Part shown: positions 5,941-64,000 of the stretch, piece by piece
Layout: every line of letters starts with the position of its first letter
Numbering within the stretch: the stretch's first letter is position 1
Assembly (NCBI GenBank): GCA_022563855.1
Contig: JADFMN010000003.1
Location: forward strand, 1 to 64,000
Length of the DNA: 64,000 nucleotides
Reading direction: 5' to 3'
From: Armatimonadota bacterium
GTDB taxonomy: Bacteria; Armatimonadota; Fimbriimonadia; Fimbriimonadales; Fimbriimonadaceae
Made by a program: the position numbers and the translations under genes
The notes under the pieces: generated by a model
What the model was told of the DNA's origin: nothing
The model's database searches: none
What the model saw: only the letters and a program-made list of their open reading frames with translations

Positions 5941-7729
5941 AACTCCCACCGCCGCCGCCGCCGAAGCCGCCGCCGGAGAACCCGCCACCGCCGAACCCAG
6001 AGCTTCCAGAGCTGGCGCCGTCCGCCCTTAGCGGCATCGAAGCTGCGCTGCCGACCTGGCTGACGATGTGTCCAAGTGCGGCTGCAAAGAGCGACGCGTG
6101 GAAGGGCATGCCGTAAGGGTGCTTGTACCACGAAGGAGGCTCGGTCAAGATGTCCTTGAACGCGTCGTTCCACTGTTCGATCAGGTCAAAGGCGACCGCG
6201 TACGCAAGGTACTGTTCGTACTTGAGTCCGTCCGGCTGCGTCTCGACGACCCACTTGAGGTAGTTCTCGCGGTGGCGCATCATTTCATAGAACCCCAAGA
6301 CCTTGCGCCTAGCAGCTGAACCATACCGCGTCCGTTTCGGCATGTGCCAGCCGATCCAGACGGCGGGAACAACGCCGAGAAGACCTCCAACGATCGCCGC
6401 CGGAACAACCTGAATGATGGACAGCGAGAACAGCGCGTAGGCAACGCCGCCGCTCAGCGCGAATCCACCAAGGATCCATCCGCTGCGCACGGTCGCCGGG
6501 TTTCTGAGGTAGTAGCCGCGTGCGATCGCTTGGTCGTACAAGTCGGTTCTCAACGACTGGATCATCGGCGCGACGTTCTCACGCAGGTCCTTGGTCGTGA
6601 TCAACTCGCCGCCCCTCTTGATCAGTCGATACAGCCTCGATTCAAGCGCGGGCAATCCACTGGTGTCCGTCTTGTCCGTCAGGCGCAATAGGACTTCGTT
6701 CTTCTTGAAGACCGAACCGGTCTCTTTGATTTCGACGAGCAGGAAACCGTTGACTGCCAGCGACATGATGCCCGCGGCTAGGTCGCGCTGGTCGACCCTC
6801 TCGTCGATCAACGTGCCGGCTAATGATGCGCTGATGCCGTCAGGCGGTTCGAATTGAACGGGGATGGCTATGTCCTTGACGTCGCGACCGATTCTGTTCC
6901 AAATCGGAAGCAGGATCGCAACTACGACGAGCGGGGTGAACAGAGCAAGGTACTCAACTATGCGGGCCAGGAGTTCCTTGTGCCAAGGCAACTTCGGCAG
7001 CGCGTCCTGAGGGATGCCAAACACGATGGTCAAGCCGGAGCCGGGATAGATTCGAGAAGACGTACTGCCGGAAAACACTTGTCCTTGCAACGTGATGGCG
7101 GTGTTGGCACGGTTGTCTGCGTCGATTGAATTCGCGCCTTCGATAGCGACCGTGTTTGCGGATCCGTACCGGCCGATGAACACCTGCCCGCGTACGTTCT
7201 GAATATCCGTTTCGGGAAACTGCAGCCAGAAGCTCGCGGATTCGATCGGCACGTCCCATTCAGTGCCCGTCACGTTCCAGTACAGCTCCGTCCACGGCTC
7301 CCACCGGGAGTCGTCGTCGTGCCAGTTGAGCGCGCCGAACACCGTGTACCGAATGACGTAGGTGCGCTGCGTTTCAGCAGGCAGATAAACGTCCGGATTC
7401 CCGATCCGTATCTTCAGGTTGTTGCCTTCTCTGCTGATCTTTGTCTGCTGCCTGTTGCCCGCGAGGTCGGTCACGCCTATCACGCGCAGGTGGATCGCCC
7501 TCTCTTGGCCTCCGCCGGTGGGGTAGACGACCGGTATCGTCCGGAAGATGCCCCTTCTCGGCTCGTTGAACGTGACGGCGATCGTCTCCTCGACCTCGAT
7601 CGTCGTGTCCTCGTTCAACCATATCCGGACGTCGAAGCTGTCTATCGAGTAAGGGCCGCTCTGCGCGAGACAGATGCCGCTCAGCGCGACGAACGTAACA
7701 AGTGCTAGATCCCGTCTGACCAATTGCAT
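5936..7729 (-). CDS. DUF2207 family membrane protein
   Basis: A 597-residue protein with a signal peptide (LVTFVALSGICLAQ). The extracytoplasmic DUF2207 beta-domain includes FDVRIWLNEDTTIEVEETI and RRGIFRTIP. A transmembrane helix follows near 255-275, then a cytoplasmic region, a second pair of helices near 400-450, and a Gly-rich tail with repeated GFGGGG and FSGGG. That tail is usual for this family (YciQ-like), whose function is unknown. It is divergent from the trypsin-like protease gene, with about 90 bases between the two starts. Confidence 0.85.
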   Translation of the reverse strand: MQLVRRDLALVTFVALSGICLAQSGPYSIDSFDVRIWLNEDTTIEVEETIAVTFNEPRRGIFRTIPVVYPTGGGQERAIHLRVIGVTDLAGNRQQTKISREGNNLKIRIGNPDVYLPAETQRTYVIRYTVFGALNWHDDDSRWEPWTELYWNVTGTEWDVPIESASFWLQFPETDIQNVRGQVFIGRYGSANTVAIEGANSIDADNRANTAITLQGQVFSGSTSSRIYPGSGLTIVFGIPQDALPKLPWHKELLARIVEYLALFTPLVVVAILLPIWNRIGRDVKDIAIPVQFEPPDGISASLAGTLIDERVDQRDLAAGIMSLAVNGFLLVEIKETGSVFKKNEVLLRLTDKTDTSGLPALESRLYRLIKRGGELITTKDLRENVAPMIQSLRTDLYDQAIARGYYLRNPATVRSGWILGGFALSGGVAYALFSLSIIQVVPAAIVGGLLGVVPAVWIGWHMPKRTRYGSAARRKVLGFYEMMRHRENYLKWVVETQPDGLKYEQYLAYAVAFDLIEQWNDAFKDILTEPPSWYKHPYGMPFHASLFAAALGHIVSQVGSAASMPLRADGASSGSSGFGGGGFSGGGFGGGGGGSW

Positions 7730-31175: not shown

Positions 31176-34100
31176 CTATCGCCAATCCCCGACGAGCATG
31201 AACGGCGCCCAGTGGAACGGGTGGCGCCATCTCGGGTCTTCGCGGATCGAGTCCATGGCACGCTGCAGGGCGACGTCCTTCGCCGCTCCTTTTATCAGCT
31301 CCGTGTAGAACGCGACCATCAGGGCCGACGTGCTGTCGTCCTGGACGCTCCACAGGCTAACGACGATGCTGCGCGCGCCGGCGTACTGCAATGCGCGAGT
31401 CAGGCCGATGACCCCTTCGCTTCTTGTAGTTTCTCCGAGCGCCGTCTCGCACGCGCTGAGCACCACGAGGTCCGCGTTCAGACGGAACCCCTCGAAGATC
31501 TCCCAGGCCTGCAGGAAGCCGTCGTCGCTCCCAGATGCCACGAGCGCAAGGCCGGACGCCAGCGGGTCCTCGTCGTCCAGCAGCCCGTGGCAGGCGAAGT
31601 GCACGATGCGCGCCCTCGGGGAAAGCTCCTTCGCCTCCGTCTCAGTCGCCATTGCGCCGAGACGGACTATGGCAGCGTCGCCGAACAGCGCGGCGATGGA
31701 CTCCACTTCAACCAGCGTGAACGGAAGGCGCGACAGTTCGCCCGACCTTAGACTGCTGCGACGAATGCGCGAGTCCTGATCGGCCTCTTCCTCGTTGCAG
31801 TTCCCTCCGTACGCCGGGTCGCCGAAGGCGAGAATCTCGTACTCGTACTCGTACTCCTTCGGGGATTCCTCCCACTGCAGGCGGGCCTCTGCGTAGACCG
31901 TCATCGAGACGATGGTGTGCAGAGGCTTCGCTTCTGTGAAGAAGCGGGCGTTCGCGAGGTCCTGCGAGCCTTCGGCGGGCGGTACGGGAACCGGCTTGCT
32001 GCCTCTTTGCCCTGCCCGCCAGGCGCCGCGCACGGTTTCTCTTTGCCTGGTCTTGCTCGCGCTGGGATCTTCGACCTTGGTGACCAGCGCCGCGAACGGC
32101 AGGTTGTGGAGCGGGCCGTCGGGGCAGATCAGGACGCGCTCGGCTCTTTCTACTTCGGATTCGGCAGGCCGGACGAGAAGGTCGTACAGGTCCTTGCCTT
32201 TTTGCACTACCGCTCCCCCCACGACGATCAAGGCCCTGAATTCTTCGACGAGCTGCTGCAATTCCTCTGCGCCGGCTTTCAAACGGTACAGCTTGAGGCC
32301 GTAGTCTTTCTCCTTCCGCGCTCCTTCTCCTCCCAGGAGGGTGAAGAGGTAGGTCTCCTCCCTGTCCACAAAATAGGTGAGCAGCAACGTTCCCTTGTCC
32401 AGCGCAGCTTGCGATCCCTCAAGGTCGAGCGGCTGCGGGTACTGGACCGCTGCGTACTTCGGCGACACTCTTCGGAACTCGGCGTCCAGCTCGCGCTGCT
32501 GGACCTTGAGGCTCAGTATCTCCGCCCGCAGCTCGTCCTCCCGAGCTGGGTCGGCTTTGTCTGCGAGCTTTGCGAGCATGGAATAAGCATTTGCTCTATT
32601 AGCATCAAGTTCGTTCTGTTCTTCGACCAGCACTACCGGCGCGTCTGCCGTGAAGTCCACTCCCCGTTCGGCGATCTGGTCCGCCAGGCCGCGCGCGCGG
32701 CTGCGCTCGACAACGTCGAAGGCCGTAGCTCCATCCGCCAACGCCACGTGCGCGCGGAGCAGTCCGGCATACGCATAGAATTGCCTGCCGAGAAACAACG
32801 AACGGACCTCAGCGGAGCGTATCGACCCACGTTGCGACTCGATGATCTCGATCGCTTGCGAGCAGTACTGGACTGCGTCAGCGAAGTTGTCTCGGTCGGA
32901 CGCGACAACGCCCAGGCTGTAGAGAATCGTGGCCACGTCGAGCGAATCCGGGGCGAGACGCTCCTCAATAGCCAGCGCGCGCTTGTGATACTCCTCCGCC
33001 GCCTGAAGGTCGCCACGGTCGTATGCTACCAATCCCAGGTTGTTGAGGCTCCCAGCCACGTCGAGCGAGTCGGGAGCGAGACGCTTCCTGATCCCCAGCG
33101 CGCGCTTGTGATACTCCTCTGCTGACTGCAGGTCGCCACGCCGCGATGCGACGCTTCCCAGGTTGTTGAGGCTAAGTGCCACGTGGAGAGAATCCGGAGA
33201 GAAACGCTCCTTTATTGCCAGCGCGCGCTTATAATACTCCTCGGCTGCCTGGAGGTCGCCACGGTCGTATGCTACCAATCCCAGGTTGTTGAGGCTCCCA
33301 GCCACGTCGTGCGAGTCGGGAGCGAGACGCTTCCTGATCCCCAGCGCGCGCTTGTGATACTCCTCGGCCGCCTGCAGGTCGCCACGGTCGTAGGCGACAG
33401 CGCCCAGGATGTTGAGGCTCATTGCCACCTCGAGCGAGTCCAGAGCCAGACGCTCTTTGATCGCCAGAGAGCGCCTGGAGTACTCCGCCGCCGCCTGCAG
33501 GTCGCCACGTTTGGATGCGACGTTGCCCAGGTTGTTGAGGCTCACGGCCACGCTGGGCGAGTCCGGAGCCAGACGCTCTTTGATCGCCAGAGAGCGCCTG
33601 TAGTACTCCTCCGCCGCCTGCAGGTCGCCACGTTTGGATGCGACGTTGCCCAGGTTGTTGAGGCTCATTGCCACATCGAGCGAATTGGGGGCCAGACGTT
33701 CCTTGATTTCCAACGCACGCGCGTAATAATTCTCCGCCGCCTGTAGGTTCCCTCGGCCACCTGCGGCGATCCCCAGATTGTTCAAGCTTGCGGCAACGGC
33801 GAGTGAATCGGGCGCTAGACGCTCCTCAATAGCCAGCGCGCGCAGGAAATACGAATCCGCTGCACCTGGGTCGCCACGGTCGTAGGCGACAGCGCCCAGG
33901 TTGTTGAGGCTCCCAGCCATGTCGAGCGAGTCCGGAGCCAGACGCTCTTTGATCGCCAGAGAGCGCCTGAAGTACTCCTCCGCCGCCTTCAGGTTCCCTC
34001 GGCCGCGTGCGGCGATCCCCAGGTTGTTGAGGCTCCCAGCCACGTCGAGCGAGTCGGGAGCGAGACGCTCCCTGATCTCCAGTACTCGCAGGAAATACGA

Positions 34101-53655: not shown

Positions 53656-54284
53656 CAGTTCTTGGGCACCTCGACACTGTCGACGAACTCATCGACGAGC
53701 CGCCGGTTTCGGTCGGTGTCCATGTTCTCGCCGATGATCTTCTCTGCCGCGAGCATCGAGACCTTCGCAACGTGCACGCGCAGGTTGACGAGCGCCTTGT
53801 CGCGCTCTGCCCTGATCTCTTCCTGCGCCTTCTTGATCATCTCGTCGGCCTTCGCGCTGGCTTCGGCCTGTATCTGCGTCCTCAGATCCTGCGCCTTCTT
53901 GACCTCGGCTTGGATCTGGGCTCTGGCGTTCGCTTCTGTCTCCGACAGTCTGGCCTCATACTCGGCCTTCATCGTTTCCATCTGAGCCTCGAGCAGCTCA
54001 GCTTCCGTAAACGTCTTTTCAAGCGAAGTAGTTCTATTGTTGATGGCTTCTGAAAGCGGCTTGATAAGCATTCCGTAGATCGCGCCGATCCAGAACAGGA
54101 AGACTCCTATCGAAGTGACCGTCTCGCCCAGATGCAGATCGATGCCTTCCAGCAGCTTCGGCTTGAACGCTTCGCCGGTCATCGCAAACCGACCGATCAG
54201 GAACAGCACCACGCCGGCGACTATCAGCAAAAGGGGCCAGGACACTGCGCCGCGACGTTTGGTCAAGATACGGTTATCGTTCAT
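53655..54284 (-). CDS. atpF: ATP synthase b subunit with an extra N-terminal membrane helix
   Basis: A 209-residue protein. A first hydrophobic helix (VSWPLLLIVAGVVLFLIG, about 14-31) precedes the usual b-subunit membrane helix (SIGVFLFWIGAIYGMLI, about 58-74), which is followed by the long charged coiled coil typical of the stator. Standard bacterial b subunits have one membrane helix. Gene order (E-F-H) confirms identity. Confidence 0.88.
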   Translation of the reverse strand: MNDNRILTKRRGAVSWPLLLIVAGVVLFLIGRFAMTGEAFKPKLLEGIDLHLGETVTSIGVFLFWIGAIYGMLIKPLSEAINNRTTSLEKTFTEAELLEAQMETMKAEYEARLSETEANARAQIQAEVKKAQDLRTQIQAEASAKADEMIKKAQEEIRAERDKALVNLRVHVAKVSMLAAEKIIGENMDTDRNRRLVDEFVDSVEVPKN

Positions 54285-54307
54285 CTACTCAGTGACCGCA
54301 GTCGTCG

Positions 54308-54685
54308 CTAATTGTTCGATTCAAAGTCGACGACTTGCCCGTCGCCCAACTGAAGGGAATCGGGGTCGGCCATCGCTACCTTGTCCTCGATCTGCAAAGA
54401 TGAACTCTCGGCCTCACCTTTGGCCTCCTCGGCGTAGTTCGGCATCTTGGCGCCGATTCCGTTGACGACGACGAACGTAAAGATGACCAGGGATTCGATC
54501 AGCGCGAGACCGATGATCATGGCCGTCTGAATTTTGCCCGTGGCCTCTGGCTGGCGCGCGATGCCGCTGACGGCGTTGCCTGCGGCGATGCCTTGGCCTA
54601 TTCCGGCTCCGAGGACGGCAAGCCCCATTCCGAGGCCTACTCCGATTGCGATTAGGGCTGGATTACCAGCTGTTTCTTGAAGCAT
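54308..54685 (-). CDS. atpE: ATP synthase c subunit with an acidic C-terminal tail
   Basis: A 125-residue c-ring subunit. Helix 1 is ALIAIGVGLGMGLAVLGAGI, the polar loop is GIARQPEATG, and helix 2 holds the ion-binding Glu64 in LALIESLVIFTFV. Gln31 and Ser65 match two Na+ ligands of Na+-type rings, but Leu66 and Phe69 replace the other usual polar residues, so coupling ion is undecided. About 45 residues after helix 2 (EEAKGEAESSSLQIEDK onward) are extra; normal subunits stop near residue 80. Confidence 0.9.
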   Translation of the reverse strand: MLQETAGNPALIAIGVGLGMGLAVLGAGIGQGIAAGNAVSGIARQPEATGKIQTAMIIGLALIESLVIFTFVVVNGIGAKMPNYAEEAKGEAESSSLQIEDKVAMADPDSLQLGDGQVVDFESNN

Positions 54686-54749
54686 TGTTAGTCGATATTC
54701 TCCTAGTCAGCACCCCTCTCGGGGGCGCAAGATTGAATCGTTGAAGCCA

Positions 54750-55484
54750 TTATGTCCGAGCCTCGGCAACTTCGCCATGGGTTTCCTGGGCATCGTCCTC
54801 TTGGTGAGTCACCAGGCTCAGGTAAATCGTTGTGAGGATGGTGAAGACGAGCGCCTGGATGATGGCGACGAGGATTTCCAGCGGCATGACGAAAACCCCG
54901 AAAGGAAATGAGCCGAGGCCGTCCAGGCTGGCCTTGACTGCGTGCCCACCGCTGATGTTTCCGTACAGGCGGAGCGAGAGCGAGACGATCTTGATCAGCT
55001 CGCTGATGATCTCAATCGGAAAGATGAGCAGCGCCATCACCGCGAGCACGCCCGGCAGTTTCGGGCCGGCAAAATGCTTAAGGTGCCCCCAGCCGCCTTT
55101 CGCGCGGACTCCCTCGATCTGGACGTAGACGAACACGACCAGCGACATGCCCAGGTTCCAGCTCCAGCTCGCGGTCGGCGTGTGCGGAAGCATGAGCCCG
55201 AGCATATTCGACACGAAGATGAACATCCACATCGCCAGCAGGAACGGCACGTACTTGGCGCCGTGGGGGCCGATTATGCTGAACGCCATGTGCTCGATGA
55301 AGAGGTACATCTGCTCGACAGCTTGAGCGATGGGTTTCTTGAAGACGCGATCCTTGAACCCGCTGCGGGCCACGTAGATGAGGATCACCATCGTGAGGAA
55401 GACGACCCCGACGTAGAAGTGGATAGCATAGTCCGCGAGCTGTGTCTCACTAGACGCGATCATGTTCCCAATGCTAGGTGTCAT
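54750..55484 (-). CDS. atpB: ATP synthase a subunit
   Basis: The protein is 244 residues from ATG 55484; ATG 55463 is an alternative. It has the stator Arg region SLSLRLYGNISGGHAV, five to six membrane helices (VVFLTMVILIYVA, VPFLLAMWMFIFVSNMLG, LVVFVYVQIEGV) and the C-terminal ALVFTILTTIYLSLV. It forms the proton or Na+ path with the c-ring. Its start overlaps the atpI end by 11 bases. Confidence 0.92.
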   Translation of the reverse strand: MTPSIGNMIASSETQLADYAIHFYVGVVFLTMVILIYVARSGFKDRVFKKPIAQAVEQMYLFIEHMAFSIIGPHGAKYVPFLLAMWMFIFVSNMLGLMLPHTPTASWSWNLGMSLVVFVYVQIEGVRAKGGWGHLKHFAGPKLPGVLAVMALLIFPIEIISELIKIVSLSLRLYGNISGGHAVKASLDGLGSFPFGVFVMPLEILVAIIQALVFTILTTIYLSLVTHQEDDAQETHGEVAEART

Positions 55485-55887
55485 CCTGACTCGTGCCTGC
55501 CGTAACACTGTCGGCGCTGGAATCGCGGTCAGCTCTCCGTGCGGCCAGCAATCCAAGGCAAAGCAGCAGCGAGTATACCAAACCGATACTCCATAGGAAG
55601 GACCCAGTGGCGTCGCTTCCGAGCCTCCCCGCCAGGATAACAAGCCCTCCCAAGACCGGGAGTTTCACGAGCATCCAGAGGACTGCCCAGTTGCGGCCCC
55701 GCTGGGGCGAGTCAGACGCCGTGACGACGGTCGTCAGCAGCATAATCGAGAGGATGCTCAGAACACCGGTCAGGCACCCGAGCAGGATGCCTACGGCAAC
55801 GAACATCGAGCCCGCCAGCGCCGCCGCGAGCGCTCCGATGCCTCCGAGCAGGATTGCAAGTCGAACCGTTCTCTTTGCTAGTTCCAT
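55474..55887 (-). CDS. atpI: ATP synthase subunit I-like membrane protein
   Basis: A 137-residue four-helix membrane protein (LAILLGGIGALAAALAG, VGILLGCLTGVLSILSIM, WMLVKLPVLGGLVILAG, SIGLVYSLLLCLGLLAA). Position between atpZ and atpB identifies it as the AtpI-type assembly factor; the sequence itself is poorly conserved. Confidence 0.75.
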   Translation of the reverse strand: MELAKRTVRLAILLGGIGALAAALAGSMFVAVGILLGCLTGVLSILSIMLLTTVVTASDSPQRGRNWAVLWMLVKLPVLGGLVILAGRLGSDATGSFLWSIGLVYSLLLCLGLLAARRADRDSSADSVTAGTSQDDT

Positions 55888-55894
55888 TGCCTGG

Positions 55895-56215
55895 TCAGCT
55901 CTTCGATCTGCTGGTGAACATTACCAGGATGAACATACCGACGAAGAATCCGATGATGGTGCCCCACATCTGGGCAGTGCCGTCTCCGGAGTTGCGGTCG
56001 ATCAGGTAACCCACGAGCCAACCCGCTATCATCGGCGCAATGATGAGGTACGCGTACTTGACGCCCGTCGCAAGCCCGGAGTAGTCACCGTTTCCGCTTC
56101 TGGGCTTATGCCGCTCCTTGCGCTTGTATTTCCAGGAAGGAGGATCTGGGAACCGTGAACCGCCAGGCGCCTCTGGCTTCTGATTATCGTCCTGATCCTC
56201 GGGGCCATCGGGCAT
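55895..56215 (-). CDS. AtpZ/AtpI family protein
   Basis: A 106-residue protein. A charged Pro-rich N-terminus precedes two membrane helices, KYAYLIIAPMIAGWLVGYLI and WGTIIGFFVGMFILVMF, with the family Gly/Asp pattern GYLIDRNSGDG. It opens the ATP synthase operon. TTTAAT lies six bases before its ATG (minus strand), so the operon message is probably leaderless. Only 14 bases separate its start from the divergent recG start. Confidence 0.82.
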   Translation of the reverse strand: MPDGPEDQDDNQKPEAPGGSRFPDPPSWKYKRKERHKPRSGNGDYSGLATGVKYAYLIIAPMIAGWLVGYLIDRNSGDGTAQMWGTIIGFFVGMFILVMFTSRSKS

Positions 56216-56229
56216 ACTTGAATTAAAGC
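56216..56229. promoter_or_regulatory. Compact divergent promoter between atpZ and recG
   Basis: Fourteen bases separate the two start codons. TTTAAT on the minus strand (56227-56222) sits at leaderless distance from atpZ. On the plus strand CATACT (56212-56217) lies inside the atpZ start region, 12 bases before the recG ATG. The two promoters must overlap. Confidence 0.55.
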
Positions 56230-58404
56230 ATGAATCAGGAGACAGCGAGCCGTGCCGGGGGCAAGCCCCAGCGGAAAACAGGCCTTGAAACCGAGGTTCA
56301 GTGGCTGAAAGGCGTCGGGCCCAAGCACGCCGTGTCGTTGGGCAAGCTGGGCATCGAAACGGTCGGCGACCTGCTGTTCTACATGCCTCGCCGGTACGAA
56401 GATCGCCGGAACCTCCCGCCGATCGGTTTCCTGAAGCCGGGGCAGCAAGCGACGATCCGCGGCGAGATCGTGGATATCCGGTCGCGCAAGGGCAGGGGCG
56501 GAAAGGTCATTCTCACCGTGACGGTCGGCGACGGCACCGGACACGTGCGGCTCATTTGGTTCAACCAGCCGTGGCTGCGAAAGACTTTGGAGAGCGTGAA
56601 GGGCGAGGTCATCGCGTTCGGCATGGTCAAAGAGTCGCGGCAGATCATGGAGATGTCCAGCCCTGAGTGGGAAGCCGTCGAAGACGACGACGACAGCGAG
56701 GACTTCGCCCGAATCACGCCGGTGTATCCGCTGACCGAGGGCGTTCAACAGTGGGTCGTGAGGCGGGCTGCCCGCTCTGCGGTCGACTACTTCGGCGATC
56801 AGCTCAAGGACCCTTTGCCGAAAGAGCTGCGCAAGAGCCACGATCTGCCCGATCTGGCTTGGACAGTCCGCCAGATGCACGGCCCCGATGGCGAGAAAGA
56901 GCAAGAGCAGGCGCGACGGAGGCTCGTGTTTGAGGAGTTCCTGTTCCTACAACTCTCGCTTCAGATGCGTCGCGCCGAAGTGAAGCAGGAGATCGGAACC
57001 GTGTTCCCGATCTCGAAGATCGGGTCTGACGAGATGCCCGACGGCGGGACGCTGTTCGCCGAGGGGGTCGAGCGTCTGCCGATTTGGGAAGAGCTGGTCA
57101 AAATGCTGCCGTTCGAGATGACCGATGCCCAGCGTCGGGTCACCCAAGAGATTTTCGACGACATGGAGCGGCCCGCGCCGATGAACAGGCTGCTGCAGGG
57201 CGACGTCGGCAGCGGCAAGACGGCGGTCGCCGCGGCCGCGATGTTGGCTGCGGTCCGGTGCGGGTGGCAAGCGGCGCTCATGGTACCGACCGAAATCCTC
57301 GCGGAACAGCACCACGTCAACTTCCGCGAACTGTTCGACCCGGTGGGCGTTCGAGTTGGGCTGCTGGTCGGCAGGATGGGAGCGCGGGCCAAGAAGAAGG
57401 CCGTCGACGGGGCTTTATCAGGAGAGCTGCAGATCGTGGTCGGCACCCACGCCTTGATCCAAGACAAGGTCGAGTTCGCCAAGATGGGCCTGGCGATCAT
57501 CGACGAGCAGCACAGGTTCGGCGTCATGCAGCGCGCTGCGCTGAGGGGGAAGGCGCGGGAGAACCCCGATGTTCTGGTGATGACCGCGACGCCGATCCCT
57601 CGAACGCTGACGATGACGCTGTACGGCGACCTCGACCTCTCCGTGATCGACGAGATGCCGCCGGGCCGAAAGCCGATCAAGACGCATTGGAAGCTCCCCC
57701 ACGAGCGGCCACAGGTCTACGCTTCGGTCCGCAAGCTCTTGGACGGCAAGCGCCAGGCGTACTTCGTCTGCCCGATGATCACAGAGAGCATCAAGATGCA
57801 GACACAGGCGGCGGTGGACCTCCACTACCGCCTCAGCGAGGACGTTTTCAAGGACTTCCGCGTCGGCCTGTTGCACGGCCAGATGAAGTCGGCCGAGAAG
57901 GAGGAGGCGATGAATCGGTTCCGGAACGCCGAGCTCGACGTGCTCGTTTCGACGGTGGTGATCGAGGTCGGCGTCGATGTGCCAAACGCCAGCGTGATGG
58001 TGATCGAAGACGCAAACCGGTTCGGCCTCAGCCAGTTGCACCAGCTCCGCGGGCGCGTCGGTCGGGGCCGTTATCAGAGCTACTGCGTGCTGATCGCCGA
58101 CGGTCGGACGGCGGACGCGCAAAGGAGGCTGGAGGTGCTGGTGCAGACCACGGATGGCTTCCTGATCGCCGAAGAGGACCTGAGAATACGCGGCCCCGGC
58201 GACATGGCGGGAACGCGCCAGCACGGCGAACTCGACTTCCGGTTTGGCGATTTAATCCGGGACGGCGTGCTGCTCGAAGAGGCTCGCAGCGCGGCGATCG
58301 CTGTACTTGCGGACGACCCGGGCTTAGCGTCCAAGAAGAACGCAGATATACTGAACCGAGTGAAGCAGCGGCGCTCTGAAGAATCGTTGATCACCGTGTC
58401 ATGA
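56230..58404 (+). CDS. recG: ATP-dependent DNA helicase RecG
   Basis: A 724-residue branch-migration helicase for stalled forks and recombination intermediates. The N-terminal wedge/OB region has VQWLKGVGPKHAVSLGKLG and LLFYMPRRYEDRR. The motor has motif I GDVGSGKTA, motif II IIDEQHRFGV, motif III VMTATPIPRTL, motif V STVVIEVGVDVPNA and motif VI QLRGRVGRG. The length is normal. It is translationally coupled (ATGA) to a rhodanese gene. Confidence 0.95.
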   Translation: MNQETASRAGGKPQRKTGLETEVQWLKGVGPKHAVSLGKLGIETVGDLLFYMPRRYEDRRNLPPIGFLKPGQQATIRGEIVDIRSRKGRGGKVILTVTVGDGTGHVRLIWFNQPWLRKTLESVKGEVIAFGMVKESRQIMEMSSPEWEAVEDDDDSEDFARITPVYPLTEGVQQWVVRRAARSAVDYFGDQLKDPLPKELRKSHDLPDLAWTVRQMHGPDGEKEQEQARRRLVFEEFLFLQLSLQMRRAEVKQEIGTVFPISKIGSDEMPDGGTLFAEGVERLPIWEELVKMLPFEMTDAQRRVTQEIFDDMERPAPMNRLLQGDVGSGKTAVAAAAMLAAVRCGWQAALMVPTEILAEQHHVNFRELFDPVGVRVGLLVGRMGARAKKKAVDGALSGELQIVVGTHALIQDKVEFAKMGLAIIDEQHRFGVMQRAALRGKARENPDVLVMTATPIPRTLTMTLYGDLDLSVIDEMPPGRKPIKTHWKLPHERPQVYASVRKLLDGKRQAYFVCPMITESIKMQTQAAVDLHYRLSEDVFKDFRVGLLHGQMKSAEKEEAMNRFRNAELDVLVSTVVIEVGVDVPNASVMVIEDANRFGLSQLHQLRGRVGRGRYQSYCVLIADGRTADAQRRLEVLVQTTDGFLIAEEDLRIRGPGDMAGTRQHGELDFRFGDLIRDGVLLEEARSAAIAVLADDPGLASKKNADILNRVKQRRSEESLITVS

Positions 58405-58727
58405 AGGACGTTCCGCAAGTCACCGTGGAAGAGTTGAACGAGGAGCTGCGCGGAGACGCGCCTCCGGTTCTGCTGGACGTTCGAGAAGATGACGAGCTGA
58501 AGATCAGCAAGCTCGACTATCGGCACCACATCCCGGTCGACGACTTGCGGGATCGGGTAGATGAGCTGAGCCCGGACGACGACATCGTGGTGATTTGCCG
58601 AACCGGATTGCGATCTGGCAACGCGACTACGTTCCTGCGGGAGAAGGGTTTCACCCGCGTCCGGTACATGTTCGGGGGCATGAACGAGTGGTCCGAGCGA
58701 ATCGATCCGACGATGCGGCAGTACTGA
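58401..58727 (+). CDS. Rhodanese-like domain protein
   Basis: A 108-residue single rhodanese domain, PPVLLDVREDDELKI and the active-site loop CRTGLRS with the catalytic Cys. It could transfer sulfur or act as a sulfur carrier; the partner is unknown. The start overlaps the recG stop (ATGA). Confidence 0.88.
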   Translation: MKDVPQVTVEELNEELRGDAPPVLLDVREDDELKISKLDYRHHIPVDDLRDRVDELSPDDDIVVICRTGLRSGNATTFLREKGFTRVRYMFGGMNEWSERIDPTMRQY

Positions 58728-59184
58728 GGGGCGCTTCGCTGACACGGGCCTTGAGGAGATGCGCCTTGGTGCTGGCAGGGCGAGCACGTCATCCTGAGCC
58801 TGTCGAAGGACCTCGCGAGCCGCGCTCGGTTTTGGGAGTGCGCCTTCCTTCGCCATCGCTTGTTGCAAGACTAGGCGGCTTGACGCCTACTTGGCCTCAC
58901 GCTCTTGATCGCGCGTCCGTGGACTAAGAGTCCACGGGCCGGGATGCGGACTAAGAGTCCGCGCTCCTTTCCAGCCCCAGAACCGTCATCCTGAGCGGAT
59001 CGAAGGAGCATGGTTCTGGGGTGATCGCTTCGACAACATGTGCTGGTCGAGCTGTCACATCGTAGCGGTCGGCAGTTTATTCGAATCCCAATCGCGCTCC
59101 TTGTCCTCGTCGAGCTCAGAACAGGCTCGCTCAGGATGACGATTGGGATTCTAATCTCTCGGGACTCGGGACTCGGGACTGGTC
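58728..59184. repeat. Spacer filled with dispersed short repeats
   Basis: No gene is seen. CATCCTGAGCCTGTCGAAGGAC (58790) recurs as GTCATCCTGAGCGGATCGAAGGA (58986) and inverted as AGGCTCGCTCAGGATGAC (59124). Two hairpins, CGTGGACT-AAG-AGTCCACG (58918-58936) and GCGGACT-AAG-AGTCCGC (58946-58962), share a loop. GGGACTC is repeated three times at 59160-59180. These words look like widespread intergenic repeats. Confidence 0.65.
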
Positions 59185-59232
59185 CCTACTTCTTCTTCGT
59201 GAACCGCCGTCGCTTGGTCGATTCCGTTGCAG
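59185..59232 (-). pseudogene. topA: Displaced 3' end of topA
   Basis: On the minus strand the DNA encodes TKRRRFTKKK and a stop, exactly the C-terminus of the intact topA gene, with three synonymous differences over the ten codons. Weaker similarity extends a few codons upstream. It lies in the same orientation as topA, 2.78 kb away, with the kinase-HD gene between. Confidence 0.85.
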
Positions 59233-59322
59233 TCAGTTCTCTCCCGAAAGTTGATTCAGCACCATTGAGAACTTAGAATCGTGTCACGCTGACTCCTCGA
59301 TGGCCATCGAGGCAGAAAAGAC
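59233..59322. other. Short spacer at the slot edge
   Basis: Between the topA remnant and the end of the kinase-HD gene I see no gene and no clear terminator. Confidence 0.4.
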
Positions 59323-61740
59323 CTATCGTCTCTTAGTTGTAGGCAGCATCTTTAGAATGTCATTCTGGACTGTTGCGAACTTGCCAGTGGACATAAGATC
59401 GTCTCGCACCTTCTGAGGTACGAATACGCGTATCTTCTTGACCAACGACTGAAAATTCTCGAACACAGACTTGGACACTCCAGAAATACGGCTGAGAGGT
59501 TCGATGCTGTATCCCTGCGCACTTCCAAGCATCTTGGTGCGCACAAATATTTCCCTACTTGCATCTTCTTCTGGATCAATGCGGGGAATGTCTAGTAAGA
59601 CACAACTAGCATGATCGATAGTTGCGATGCCAGATTCGCTGATGATGTTCGTAATTCTTAGTCGTAGCGCCTCGACGCCTGCAGAATCCAATCCTATAAG
59701 GTGTTTATATGTAATCTTGTACTTGCCCCTGTCTGTGATCTCGATCAAGCGACGGTAATGACCTCGCCCTCCACTTAGCAGACTCACTAGCGGATTGGAC
59801 TCAGCCGGAAAATTGATTTCAAACTCTAGTGACAGCAGGGCAACGGCCTCGTAATCAGTCATGAACATACTTCGGTAGACATATTCTTTAAAACCAAATC
59901 CTGTCGCATCAATAAACAGCTTGCGAGCAACGTACTTGATCATAGCCATCATCGCTCGATTAGCATGGTGCCAATACACTCTCGCGTACATGTGGTATCG
60001 GGCAATCACAATGCTTTCTGCCGCCATAATTGCTTTCTCAGCTACTCCGATCTGCGCATTACGATCGCCCTGCTCGGGGATGGCAATCAGTCCATCAAGC
60101 AACGCGTCCAAATCAACTCCGGATCCATAACCAACGCCAGTGAAAAGGCTATCGGACGTCAGATATGCAACCTTGTCTGCATCGATTGGTCCATCAATAA
60201 TGGAAGTTTGCAAGTGTGCAACCTCCGATGTCCCCTCTCCTTCTATGAGCGAAACTACTTGCCTATAATCCAGTCCCCAAGCTGGTTCATCAAGTATGTC
60301 GGCCAGCGACTTGTCAATGTTTTGCTCACTGCCATCGGTAGCTGCAGTTGTGCCCTTGAAGTTCAGGAAATAGCGGGACATTCTGCTATGGAATTCGGGC
60401 GGACGTCCCTTGAACAAGTTTTCCGTAGCCTCGCGAGGAGTACAGAGGTCATCTAGTGCATGGGCGAGCGGGTAGTGCCCAATATCGTGAAGAAGGGCCG
60501 ACGCGAGAAGTAGAGAGTGATCCTTTGGGAACATCAATATCCTTGCTGTAGGATCTGAGATAAGGGCTCGAACATATTGTTTGACGACAGAGAAAGTTGC
60601 TAGAGAGTGGGCAAATCTAGAGTGCTTAGCATCTGGAAACACACGCTCTACAAGATTGAGCTGATTCTGAAACCGTAATCGCTGAAACATAGGGTGGTCG
60701 ACAAGTGCCTGAGCCCTGCTGGACAGCGATACACGGTGTGTTGCGAGATTGACTTTTTGCTCTGAGCGCTCAACTCGAAATTCAGGCACTCCAAGTGGTT
60801 CGGTATATGACGCTGACAGTTTCTCAAAGTCCAGCAGAGCCTGAGAAGCTGATCGGTAGCAATGTGGATCGTTTCGATCACTCACTAGCAAGCGACGTAT
60901 AAAGGATTTCATGAGGTGCAGATCACTTGCAGTTAGCTCAGACTTGATATTTGGCTTAATGTGTTCGAGGAGCTCGTCAAAATCACGATCGGATTTCGCT
61001 GGAATTGTCTTTTGCGAAACCAATTCACAGAATGTAGTGCCTAGGCAGTATAGGTCAAGATGTGGTAAAAATTCTGAGAGCAATGCTCGTGAGACTTTCT
61101 TTCCGATGAGTTCACGTGCGTAATTTGGTGCATACCTATGTGAGCCGAAGAGAGGCGTATCTGCAAGGAACTCAATTGTGGCAGAATCACCTGTTTTGAA
61201 GGAAAGGGGTTTAGCGCATCCGAGATCCGCAATTCTTACCTCTAGTTCCCCATTCGGCAAGCGCAAGTAAAGAAGATTCGAGGGCTTAATATCGCAGTGC
61301 AGAATCTCTTGTGAGTGAAGATACTCTAGACCCGTGAGAACTTGACGAAAGCAATCGATGATTTCAGTCCCATCAGAGATAGACCTGAAAAGTGCGGACA
61401 ATGTTGGTTCGTCGCCATCAGCCGAGGGCATCAGTTCCATCACGTAGAATGGACGGATCTTGCCTGCATGCTCGACTTCTCCCGCGTCGACAATCTTCAC
61501 TACATTGCGATGTGTGATTGAAGATAGCAAGCGTATTTCGTTCTCGAACGTTCTATCAAAGGTCTTCGCGCGTGGGCCGCGAGCATATAGTGGATGCGAA
61601 AGTTTGAGTGCCCGTCGAGCTCCTAGGCTGAGCTGTTCAACCTCGTACAGTTTAGCTGCACCACCATGAGAGATGGATGCTACCACTCGATACTTCTGAT
61701 CTACGATGTCGCCGTCGGTGATTGCTTTCGCGCTCGGCAT
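59323..61740 (-). CDS. Ser/Thr protein kinase fused to a SAMHD1-like HD phosphohydrolase
   Basis: An 805-residue protein. Residues 16-310 are a Hanks-type kinase: Gly-loop SHGGAAKLYEV, Lys46 in RALKLS, catalytic loop LHCDIKPSNLL (Asp150, Cys in place of the usual Arg), DLG (172-174) in place of DFG and SHRYAPNYARE for the APE region. Residues 340-805 match COG1078 HD proteins: HPMFQRLRFQNQL, HSRFAHSLATF (H378), LLHDIGHYPLAHAL (H418, D419) and the later Asp in PIDADKVAYL. The HD part may hydrolyse dNTPs. Base composition is clearly AT-richer than its neighbours. TATCAT lies ten bases upstream. Confidence 0.88.
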   Translation of the reverse strand: MPSAKAITDGDIVDQKYRVVASISHGGAAKLYEVEQLSLGARRALKLSHPLYARGPRAKTFDRTFENEIRLLSSITHRNVVKIVDAGEVEHAGKIRPFYVMELMPSADGDEPTLSALFRSISDGTEIIDCFRQVLTGLEYLHSQEILHCDIKPSNLLYLRLPNGELEVRIADLGCAKPLSFKTGDSATIEFLADTPLFGSHRYAPNYARELIGKKVSRALLSEFLPHLDLYCLGTTFCELVSQKTIPAKSDRDFDELLEHIKPNIKSELTASDLHLMKSFIRRLLVSDRNDPHCYRSASQALLDFEKLSASYTEPLGVPEFRVERSEQKVNLATHRVSLSSRAQALVDHPMFQRLRFQNQLNLVERVFPDAKHSRFAHSLATFSVVKQYVRALISDPTARILMFPKDHSLLLASALLHDIGHYPLAHALDDLCTPREATENLFKGRPPEFHSRMSRYFLNFKGTTAATDGSEQNIDKSLADILDEPAWGLDYRQVVSLIEGEGTSEVAHLQTSIIDGPIDADKVAYLTSDSLFTGVGYGSGVDLDALLDGLIAIPEQGDRNAQIGVAEKAIMAAESIVIARYHMYARVYWHHANRAMMAMIKYVARKLFIDATGFGFKEYVYRSMFMTDYEAVALLSLEFEINFPAESNPLVSLLSGGRGHYRRLIEITDRGKYKITYKHLIGLDSAGVEALRLRITNIISESGIATIDHASCVLLDIPRIDPEEDASREIFVRTKMLGSAQGYSIEPLSRISGVSKSVFENFQSLVKKIRVFVPQKVRDDLMSTGKFATVQNDILKMLPTTKRR

Positions 61741-61963
61741 GGTCGATTGAATGATACCTTCCTACACGGTTCACTTTCTTCCTGCCGTTACTCGCCTTGC
61801 GCGATGCGCCTGAAACGGTACTCAAGCATAATTGGACTGTGGGATCTTATTCTGGCTGTTTCTGATTAACAGTTGTCTGGTACGAATACACATGTATGAC
61901 TATGCATATGCGGCTGTTTGAATGTCCGATCTGAACCCCGCTCCATAGTGCAAATATCTGTTG
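61741..61963. other. AT-rich spacer at the slot edge
   Basis: No coding frame with protein-like composition is seen. The AT-rich composition matches the kinase-HD gene and changes abruptly to GC-rich at the topA stop, so this is probably part of the acquired DNA. Confidence 0.5.
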
Positions 61964-61964
61964 C

Positions 61965-64000
61965 CTACTTTTTCTTCGTGAACCGTCGGCGCTTGGTCGG
62001 ACCCTTGGCAGCCTTCGCTTTGACCAGCTCGACCGCCTTTTCCGGCGTCAAGTCAGCAGGGTCGAGCCCCTTGGGGAGGGTCGCGTTGACCTTGCCGTTC
62101 TTCACGTAAGGCCCGTACCGCCCGCTCAGCAGTTGCACCGGCCCTTCGAGCCCTTCAAGCTCGCCGAAGTCCTTGATGATCTCCGGGCCAGAGCGCGCCT
62201 TCTTTGCGTTCACCAAGAACACGACCGCCTCATCGACTGTGACAGAAGCGCCCTTGCGCCAGTCGCCGACGTTCGCCTTCTTGTCGCCGCAGATCAGATA
62301 CGGCCCAAACTTGCCGAGCGCGACGGAGATCATGTCGCCGCTCTCGGGGTGCGGGCCGATCTCGCGCGGGTAGCTGAGGAGGATCGCCAGCTCCTTGTCC
62401 CCGATCTCTGCCGGCTTCAGCTCCTTCGGGATCGTGATACGCTTCGGCTTCTTTCCGCTCTTCCTCTCAGCCTCGGTCTGCTCGACCTCCAGATAGTCGC
62501 CGAACCGACCTGTCTTGTGGAGCACGCACTGCCCCGTCGCGGGGTCTTCGCCCAGAGCCTGACCGCCCGCCTTCTTCTGCGCCAGAAGTTCGAGCGCTAT
62601 CTCCAGCGTCAACTCCGCCGGCGGCAAATCGCCAGGGACGCTGGCCGTGTTGCCGGGGCCGCCCTCCCCTCGCTGGAGGAAAGGACCGTTGCGGCCAATT
62701 CGAACGATGATGTTTTCGCCGACGGCGATCGCAGGGAACGGAATATCTTTGCTCAAATGCGTGACCTGCGGCTCGATCCCAGGATGTTCATCAGTGCCGG
62801 TATAGAACTCTCGCAGATAGCCAACGTGGTCTAGGTTGCCGTTAGCAATCTCATCAAGCTGTTCTTCGAGCTGCGCCGTAAAGGTCGTATCGACCAGCTC
62901 CGTGAAGTTGTTCTCCAGAAGCTCCGTCACGGCGAACGCGGTGAACGTTGGCACTAGTTCTCGGCCTTTCTTGAAGATATATCCGCGGTCTTCGATGGTT
63001 CCGAGGATGCTCGCGTAGGTACTTGGCCGTCCGACGCCTTCTGACTCCAGCTCCTTGACGAGCGACGCCTCGGTGAACCGCGCGGGCGGTCGTGTTGCGT
63101 GCTCGGTCGCGCGGACTTCCTTTGCCGCCAGCTCTTGCCCCTTCTCGAGGGTGGGAAGGATGCGCTCCTTGTTGGCCAAGTCGGCGTCAGGGTCGTCTGC
63201 GCCCTCCACATACGCTTTCAGGAAACCCGGAAAGAGGATGCTCTTGCCGCTCGCAGCAAATACGAACTTCGTGCCGTTGCTCGAGACCGCGATAGAGACT
63301 CTTGTACGCTCAACCTCTGCAGGCTTCATCTGACAGGCGATCGTTCTTTTCCAGATCAAGTCGTACAGCTTGAACTGGTCCGCAGATAGAGAACTCCTTA
63401 CATCCTGCGGTCGACGGGCGAGATCCGAAGGGCGGATCGCCTCGTGAGCTTCCTGAGCGTTCTTAGACTTCGACTTGTACTGCTTCGGCTTGGCGGGAAC
63501 GTGCTCAGCGCCGTACAGGTCGCCAATCACCGTGCGTGCCTGCTTGATCGCTCGATCTGCGAGCGTGAGGCTGTCGGTACGCATATACGTGATCAAACCG
63601 ACCCGTTCGCCGCTGCCGAGGTCGATGCCTTCGTACAGTTGTTGGGCGATTCTCATCGTTCGACGGGCCGTGTAGCCGAGCTTTCGGTTTGCCTCTTGTT
63701 GCAGCGTCGAGGTCATGAACGGCGGTGGAGGGTTCTCCCTGCCCGGCTTCGCATCGATATCTGACACGGTCCAAGGCGAACTTTCGGCGACGGCAGCTTG
63801 GAACGACTGTGCCTCGTTCGCCATGAGCCAGCGAACTTTGTCAGATGAGAGCTGTCCCCGGCTGTCGAAATGCTCGCCCTCCGCGACCCTGGCGTCGTCG
63901 ACGCTGCGCAGTCGCGCGACGAACGATTGCCCGTTTGTCACAAGGGTCGCTTCAACCCCCGAGTACTCGGCGATGACGAACTGCTTGCGCTCTCTTTCAC
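61965..64000 (-). CDS. topA: DNA topoisomerase I (N-terminus beyond right edge)
   Basis: The visible 678 or so codons cover most of a type IA topoisomerase, which relaxes negative supercoils. The catalytic Tyr is in VGLITYMRTDS; EAHEAIRPSD, TRPPARFTEASLVKELE and GIGRPST-like GVGRPSTYASI fit the family. The C-terminal part has several GRYGPYV/GKFGPYL repeat modules replacing zinc fingers, and a basic tail. The frame stays open to 64000. Its 3' end is duplicated at 59185. Confidence 0.93.
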   Translation of the reverse strand, partial: ERERKQFVIAEYSGVEATLVTNGQSFVARLRSVDDARVAEGEHFDSRGQLSSDKVRWLMANEAQSFQAAVAESSPWTVSDIDAKPGRENPPPPFMTSTLQQEANRKLGYTARRTMRIAQQLYEGIDLGSGERVGLITYMRTDSLTLADRAIKQARTVIGDLYGAEHVPAKPKQYKSKSKNAQEAHEAIRPSDLARRPQDVRSSLSADQFKLYDLIWKRTIACQMKPAEVERTRVSIAVSSNGTKFVFAASGKSILFPGFLKAYVEGADDPDADLANKERILPTLEKGQELAAKEVRATEHATRPPARFTEASLVKELESEGVGRPSTYASILGTIEDRGYIFKKGRELVPTFTAFAVTELLENNFTELVDTTFTAQLEEQLDEIANGNLDHVGYLREFYTGTDEHPGIEPQVTHLSKDIPFPAIAVGENIIVRIGRNGPFLQRGEGGPGNTASVPGDLPPAELTLEIALELLAQKKAGGQALGEDPATGQCVLHKTGRFGDYLEVEQTEAERKSGKKPKRITIPKELKPAEIGDKELAILLSYPREIGPHPESGDMISVALGKFGPYLICGDKKANVGDWRKGASVTVDEAVVFLVNAKKARSGPEIIKDFGELEGLEGPVQLLSGRYGPYVKNGKVNATLPKGLDPADLTPEKAVELVKAKAAKGPTKRRRFTKKK

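Follow-up and report, generated by a model that had tools for sequence, protein, structure and literature searches.

A horizontally acquired fusion of a Hanks-type kinase and a SAMHD1-like HD domain, a candidate kinase-controlled deoxynucleotide hydrolase

The DNA analysed here, the first 64,000 nucleotides of contig JADFMN010000003.1 (forward strand; GenBank assembly GCA_022563855.1, an Armatimonadota bacterium of the family Fimbriimonadaceae; hereafter the window), holds a gene at 59323–61740 on the minus strand that joins a Hanks-type protein kinase to a SAMHD1-like HD domain in one chain. We give a probability of about one half to the reading that this protein and its relatives are mobile, single-chain, kinase-controlled deoxynucleotide hydrolases. 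The evidence comes from the active site and fold of the HD half, from a family of fusions scattered across bacterial phyla, and from the position of the gene beside topA.

Results

The reading frame runs from an ATG at 61738–61740 to a stop at 59323–59325 (805 amino acids, the coordinates including the stop), and the plus strand is closed there. A first-pass annotation, made from the sequence without database searches, had proposed a two-domain fusion with these limits, and the list of open reading frames (ORFs) and the Pfam matches, both above their cut-offs, agree with it. Pkinase covers residues 19–290 (60871–61686, minus strand; E 9.3e-22, 78.1 bits against a cut-off of 31.7), which marks the N-terminal half as a Hanks-type kinase. 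HD_assoc_2 covers residues 563–617 (59890–60054, minus strand; E 4.9e-8, 33.1 bits against a cut-off of 23.1), a region that contains the signature RYxxYxxVYWHHxxRA, whilst the generic HD model stays below threshold at residues 375–429 (20.5 against a cut-off of 22). The COG1078/SAMHD1-like phosphohydrolase half as a whole spans residues 326–805 (59326–60765, minus strand), as delimited by the SAMHD1 alignment, the fold match and the conserved columns. The same Pfam scan gave no SAM domain match in the window protein, and it is the kinase that sits at the N-terminus. Sequence searches of solved structures matched the C-terminal half to the HD proteins 2hek (2e-21) and Enterococcus faecalis 2o6i/4lrl (9e-17), and also to 2q14 and SAMHD1; the kinase half matched StkP-type bacterial Ser/Thr kinases near 1e-11. 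As the same two-domain order recurs in 11 other records, the frame is judged to be a genuine gene and no chance ORF.

Residue equivalences in the HD half were taken from an HD profile aligned to SAMHD1, with numbers counted along the alignment. The metal ligands His167, His206, Asp207 and Asp311 of SAMHD1 correspond to His378, His418, Asp419 and Asp522; His210, His215 and Asp218 to His422, His427 and Asp430 (the last placed from the ungapped motif); and the substrate positions Arg164, Lys312, Tyr315, Asp319, Arg366 and Tyr374 to Arg375, Lys523, Tyr526, Asp530, Arg581 and Tyr589. The roles of His210, Asp218, His233, Tyr315, Asp319, Arg366 and Tyr374 in SAMHD1 are those given in PMC7045340, and His215 is its proposed general acid (PMC7311409). 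Every metal, substrate and general-acid position checked is present in the window protein. A structure model based on seven of the fusions (mean pLDDT, the predicted local distance difference test score, 65.8; pTM, the predicted template-modelling score, 0.66) found its best fold match in E. faecalis EF1143 with dGTP and dATP bound (3irh; Z 31.5 over 391 residues at 4.5 A), followed by 2q14, 2hek and SAMHD1 (4bzc, Z 26.3), the matches covering residues about 322–800. The kinase assignment rests on Pfam and sequence, hardly on fold. The complete active site and the fold bear out the SAMHD1-like core seen in the first-pass annotation, and the alignments put its catalytic residues (Lys46, Asp150 and Asp172 in the kinase; His378, His418-Asp419 and a later Asp, here Asp522, in the HD half) where it had them. 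We predict with high confidence that the HD half is a nucleotide phosphohydrolase.

A search for the same two-domain order, as suggested with the first-pass annotation, yielded 11 other complete or nearly complete fusions, or 12 records with the window's. Their hosts belong to Armatimonadota, Pseudomonadota, Myxococcota, Chloroflexota, Acidobacteriota and Spirochaetota, with one more on a phage contig. Two are from the window's phylum: L010 (the same as L084), in the Armatimonadetes metagenome-assembled genome (MAG) JAPLCU010000092.1, and L011, in a genome of the window's own family. The others are L052, on an IMG/VR contig; L074, in a Burkholderiales MAG; L113, in a Myxococcales MAG; L193, in Chloroflexi RBG_16_48_8 and broken off at a scaffold gap; L217, in a genome of the same phylum as RBG_16_48_8 and with one in-frame stop; L256, from the phylum of a Bryobacterales MAG; L143, in a Leptospiraceae MAG; and L259 and L260, from the phylum of the latter.

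The fusions are rare and patchy among genomes. Of 291 genomes from the window's phylum, 3 have one, counted from frames matching both halves (L011 by its sequence); the other samples gave 1/377, 2/400, 1/297, 1/300 and 3/198. All these figures include the seed genomes and were obtained with score thresholds differing between samples. Amongst plasmid and phage records none spans 80% of the protein, and the matches, in 131 plasmid and 22 phage records, extend over about half of it at most. IMG/VR gave half-matches or none when scanned with an alignment of the whole protein or with its VYWHH region; a DNA pattern then gave one full fusion, L052. The motif VYWHHxxRA was considered as a fusion-specific pattern and rejected, as all of the at least 120 genome-contig matches listed fit the HD half and most look stand-alone or incomplete. 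A script found an in-frame kinase match in three of the 120 listed (L074, L084 and L113). The kinase of L154 lay beyond the first stretch examined and was found afterwards, the degenerate kinase half of L143 was missed by the single-sequence query, and L061 is a truncated copy in which no kinase half was found; the remaining 114 are apparently stand-alone or incomplete. The stand-alone HD family with this signature is large in Planctomycetota and Myxococcota (loci L053–L172). We recognised no prior description of a fusion of a kinase with an HD deoxynucleoside triphosphate (dNTP) hydrolase, or dNTPase, in the open-access papers searched.

In a tree of HD domains with 54 rows (the 12 fusions, the truncated L061 and 41 stand-alone proteins), the fusions and L061 make up one side of a single branch with support 97/96, nested among stand-alone HDs of Latescibacterota and Myxococcota; an earlier tree of 51 rows, including 10 of these sequences, gave the same grouping at 100/98. 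The clade spans at least six phyla and several of its fusion branches are long. Because the hosts are so scattered, the simplest reading would be a single fusion event followed by horizontal spread.

All 12 fusions are identical at the positions of Arg375, His378, Asp419, His427, Asp522, Lys523, Tyr526, Asp530, Arg581 and Tyr589 and at the YWHH histidines. The histidine of the HD motif is kept in 11 and is Asn in L193, so the metal ligands are intact in 11 of 12. At the position of SAMHD1 Asp218 most of the other fusions have Glu, which gives a His-Glu pair at +9/+12 from the HD motif. The L193 motif reads ND in an otherwise intact fusion (L193:7478-8371), either a lost metal ligand or a sequencing error.

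The kinase half has its catalytic set: Lys46, Glu68 of helix alpha-C, Asp150 of HxD, Asn155 and Asp172 of DxG, with Asp229 also assigned. RD-type features are absent (HCD instead of HRD, DLG instead of DFG), and by its motifs the window kinase is a non-RD Hanks kinase. The first-pass annotation had called HCD and DLG unusual; both are indeed present, but neither is odd within the family, where no fusion has Arg in HxD (0/12) and DLG replaces DFG in 8 of 12, the exceptions being DFG in L011 and L260, DFS in L259 and no such motif in L143. The two oddities are, to judge from the alignment, family features. The Lys, Glu, Asp, Asn and Asp columns are kept in 11 of the 12 fusions, the Lys column being doubtful for L143, where catalytic residues are lost, and for L260, which has no recognisable kinase N-lobe. 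The three spirochaete members (L143:1077-3461, L259:7254-9710, L260:2108-4546) form a subgroup with an eroding kinase, possibly a pseudokinase branch. Amongst the PADLOC defence models, PD-T4-6 (4.3e-27) and mad6 (3e-22) match the kinase half; models of this kind also match kinases beside stand-alone HDs.

SAMHD1 recognises the guanine of its activating nucleotide at the AL1 site, through Asp137, Gln142 and Arg145 (PMC7045340). In the alignment the equivalents are Asp348, Gln353 and Arg356 (60673–60699, minus strand), and the window protein is the sole fusion of the 12 to have the triad complete. It is kept in all nine of the nearest stand-alone HDs (L068, L125, L133, L138, L160, L197, L198, L199 and L207). 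In many stand-alone HDs of Planctomycetota, too, it is partly lost, so its loss is not confined to fusions. This pattern suggests that in most fusions the kinase half may have taken over from guanine-nucleotide allostery. The window protein would be a dual-input form, and since it retains the AL1 site a need for two inputs, guanine nucleotide and kinase, is expected.

The window gene is an acquired gene, inserted at the 3′ end of topA. Its G+C content is 48.2% against 60.9% in the rest of the window. On one side lies the 3′ part of topA (61965–63941, minus strand; the gene extends past this ORF start), identified from the ORF list and by homology, and on the other a rhodanese-like gene (58401–58727, plus strand) and recG (56230–58404, plus strand), both ancestral neighbours of topA as judged from relatives' loci. 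For 38 matched genomes, 30 topA loci were compared; one is that of the window itself, which leaves 29 relatives. In 10 of these, rhodanese and/or recG lie within 1.5 kb downstream of topA, and in none (0/29) does a fusion lie there; in the window the interval between topA and rhodanese is 3.2 kb and holds the fusion.

A 54-bp direct repeat brackets the gene. Its right copy (61958–62011) is the present end of topA, encoding TKRRRFTKKK and the stop, and its left copy (59179–59232) is a second such topA end, 81% identical, the differences lying partly at synonymous positions. Searched against the whole genome, the second copy scores E 8.9e-9 and the next best match 0.1, and there is no further copy in the window's own genome at E < 0.1. 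In the flanks of the 29 relatives no second topA end stands clearly above shuffled sequences (L220, L222 and L226 exceed the shuffled maximum by 1–2 bases); the window's own row in this test is void, since its repeat lies outside the 1.5 kb compared. Repeats of this kind are the usual trace of elements that insert at a gene's 3′ end and restore it, and the 54-bp repeat is likely to be an integration footprint at topA. The acquired segment would be 59233–61957, with the fusion as its sole recognised gene; no integrase was seen between the repeats. The first-pass annotation had remarked on an acquired look, which the low G+C, the topA repeat and the topA–rhodanese–recG order of relatives bear out. 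A tRNA attachment site was considered and rejected, because the only tRNA of the window lies far away; there is no Rfam match in 54000–64000. Two copies of a CGTCATCCTGAGC...TCGAAGGA element lie between rhodanese and the left repeat (58787–58810 and 58984–59007). In the Myxococcales contig the fusion and a HIT gene are enclosed by a direct repeat of 80 bp (93%) that consists of part of an HNH gene (L194:2048-2127 and 5952-6031).

Gene neighbourhoods, which the first-pass annotation had proposed to inspect for defence genes, bear out that suggestion in part. Recognised defence genes accompany the fusion in three of eight cellular contexts (L010, L113 and L217), and a ninth locus, L052, has phage packaging genes; the homologues are therefore not confined to housekeeping contexts, a BREX-like operon and a phage contig being among their loci. 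In L010 the order pglZ, fusion, pglX, abiEi, abiEii, brxL is tightly packed on one strand, with gaps of about 10 bp between the fusion and pglX and about 50 bp between the fusion and pglZ. In this BREX-like operon (L043:9726-18982 and L044:16253-19159) the neighbours score 8.6e-9 (PglZ), 1.3e-79 (PglXI) and 1.5e-167 (BrxL), and AbiEi and AbiEii are also matched. The C-terminal part of BrxL matches a CARF-Lon model as well, and the two AbiE genes stand between those for PglX and BrxL. L113 has two HNH genes, a HIT gene and the PADLOC candidate PDC-S11, with PDC-S27 further off. L217 has the SIR2-like PDC-S25 (3.4e-138) about 4.4 kb away on the opposite strand. On the L052 contig, which also has head protease and integrase genes, the fusion lies inverted between portal and terminase genes, with a G+C of 55.8% against 66.9%. 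L074, L143 and L256 lie on contigs too short for the context count, which also leaves out the truncated L061, whose flanks (L196) were scanned.

The fusion-flank set comprised 48 ORFs, partly hand-picked from 52, with antisense ORFs swapped for Pfam-supported ones; a SIR2 gene straddling the 5-kb limit was added, and BrxL and PDC-S27 lie outside the set. It also has SspA, DndA and DpdF matches, which were not counted as defence. As control we took 115 flanking ORFs from 24 of 25 eligible stand-alone HD loci. In a scan of 114 of them, the listed 25 of 41 families are kinase models matching two ORFs each; two kinases found by motif were dropped, leaving 113 ORFs, which match nine one-member families (SspA, DndA, RT_UG29, RTasDnaG-like, RtcR-CARF, PDC-M51B, mad3, CARF_m8 and VakA). 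No BREX, restriction or SIR2 gene was found beside the stand-alone HDs in these 113 ORFs of 24 loci. Around the window gene, a PADLOC scan at 1e-10 of 30 ORFs over contig positions 34000–76000 matched PD-Lambda-2_C twice, cll, DpdF and PsyrT, of which we take the DpdF and PsyrT matches to be RecG. Matches to PD-Lambda-2_C (1.5e-41) and cll (4.1e-27) fall in window 34000–64000 or in L051 8000–20000, and recur in 0 of 10 ORFs rescanned.

Discussion

We infer dNTPase activity, phosphorylation and an anti-phage function for the fusion, and regard a phospho-regulated anti-phage hydrolase as a reasonable, indirectly supported hypothesis. The HD half would be a triphosphohydrolase of the SAMHD1/EF1143 type, and the N-terminal non-RD kinase a built-in switch whose cue is probably phage infection. 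The kinase would phosphorylate the HD half or shift its conformation, and dNTP hydrolysis would thereby be released or restrained, starving replication. In most members this kinase gate would replace the GTP-binding allosteric site of the stand-alone HDs. The gene would spread horizontally, carried within defence islands and on a phage, as seen for some members. It is probable that the kinase half controls the HD half, and the balance tips slightly towards a biological role in anti-phage or phage–phage conflict. More tentatively, the fusions may make up a family, undescribed so far, of single-chain immune switches, each an HD effector that destroys dNTPs and is gated by a kinase in place of GTP/dNTP allostery.

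Antiviral nucleotide depletion is common to animals and bacteria, and it raises the question of how so dangerous an enzyme is restrained, by phosphorylation in SAMHD1 or by p3diT in the Clover system. If the proposed scheme is true, bacteria would have in the fusion their own equivalent of SAMHD1 under kinase control. It would serve as free cargo (at topA), as cargo of a phage and, between pglZ and pglX, as an added part of a BREX-like operon, and a nucleotide hydrolase would join the components of BREX-type loci. With the AL1 triad eroded in 11 of 12 fusions and retained in one, restraint becomes testable in a single polypeptide, across a natural series of intermediates.

Several observations weigh against a kinase-controlled anti-phage hydrolase. 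L143 has Ser, Cys and Gln at the positions of Asp150, Asn155 and Asp172, and kinase catalysis is therefore dispensable in some members; no phospho-site was identified in the HD half. Five of the eight cellular contexts (the window, L045, L193 on one side only, L259 and L260) have no recognised defence gene, and the surroundings of L259 and L260, judged from ORF reading alone, look chromosomal and ordinary. The count of defence neighbours is small and was defined post hoc, with control loci from other genomes. Finally, the window protein still has its AL1 site, so that a lost allosteric control is no part of its own history.

The five contexts with no recognised defence gene, the window's included, give most scope to the idea of a housekeeping or stress regulator, whose kinase would sense growth state and tune dNTP pools, horizontal gene transfer spreading a physiological accessory and not immunity. 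The spirochaete members sit among ordinary chromosomal genes, Planctomycetota and Myxococcota have many stand-alone HD relatives, and a Caulobacter dNTPase works in the cell cycle (PMC12186491). We nevertheless consider this unlikely, given the rarity and patchy spread of the fusions, the low G+C and flanking repeats, and the presence of one copy in a BREX-like operon and one in a phage. HD enzymes have varied substrates, and the inverted, lower-G+C fusion between the terminase and portal genes of L052 could point to an HD half that acts on some other nucleotide (a second messenger, a modified phage nucleotide or another signal), possibly in phage-borne counter-defence or superinfection exclusion; all dNTP-contacting positions checked match SAMHD1/EF1143, however, and phage contigs account for a single member, which makes this less likely again. 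Least probable of all is a kinase that is itself the toxic effector, with the HD half as nucleotide sensor or brake, on the pattern of prophage KKP modules, a phosphorylation-based toxin–antitoxin with anti-phage function (PMC11341870): the kinase half resembles defence kinases and one member is phage-borne, but ordinary kinases match the PADLOC kinase models just as strongly, the HD site is more strictly kept than the kinase site, and L143 combines a dead kinase with an intact HD half.

Comparison with known systems

Set beside known proteins, the kinase-controlled hydrolase proposed here is nearest in sequence and tree to the stand-alone COG1078-type HDs with VYWHHxxRA from Myxococcota, Latescibacterota and Planctomycetota. 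They share its catalytic residues and differ in having no kinase, in the AL1 triad of all nine nearest members, and in sampled flanks free of BREX, restriction and SIR2 genes. EF1143 (2o6i/3irh/4lrl) and SAMHD1 share the HD fold over the whole C-terminal half, as well as the metal, substrate and general-acid positions. EF1143 has no kinase, whereas SAMHD1 carries a SAM domain and depends on a separate kinase for its phosphorylation (PMC6110608); its AL1 guanine site is present in the window protein and complete in 0 of the 11 other fusions.

Clover, which pairs the dGTPase CloA with CloB, also uses an HD dNTPase, and CloA, with HD motif His117/Asp118 and dyad His126/Glu129, has the H..E spacing of +9/+12 found in most fusions (PMC12265719). 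CloA is restrained until phage infection; the restraint comes from a second protein that makes p3diT, with no kinase (PMC12265719). No nucleotidyltransferase of the CloB kind lies beside the window gene, whose adjacent genes are topA and rhodanese/recG. The anti-phage dGTPases NF041026 and NF003701 have weak similarity in the HD core, with scores of 15.8 and 18.4 bits where the cut-offs are 400 and 383. For the kinase half the counterparts are the defence kinases PglW (BREX type 2), MAD6, PD-T4-6 and KKP. The PglW, MAD6 and PD-T4-6 model matches are confined to that half of the window protein, which falls below the curated cut-offs of PglW (20.9 against 990 bits) and MAD6 (55.6 against 460 bits); what the fusions have in common with these systems is a Ser/Thr kinase in a defence setting, exemplified by L010 in its BREX-like operon.

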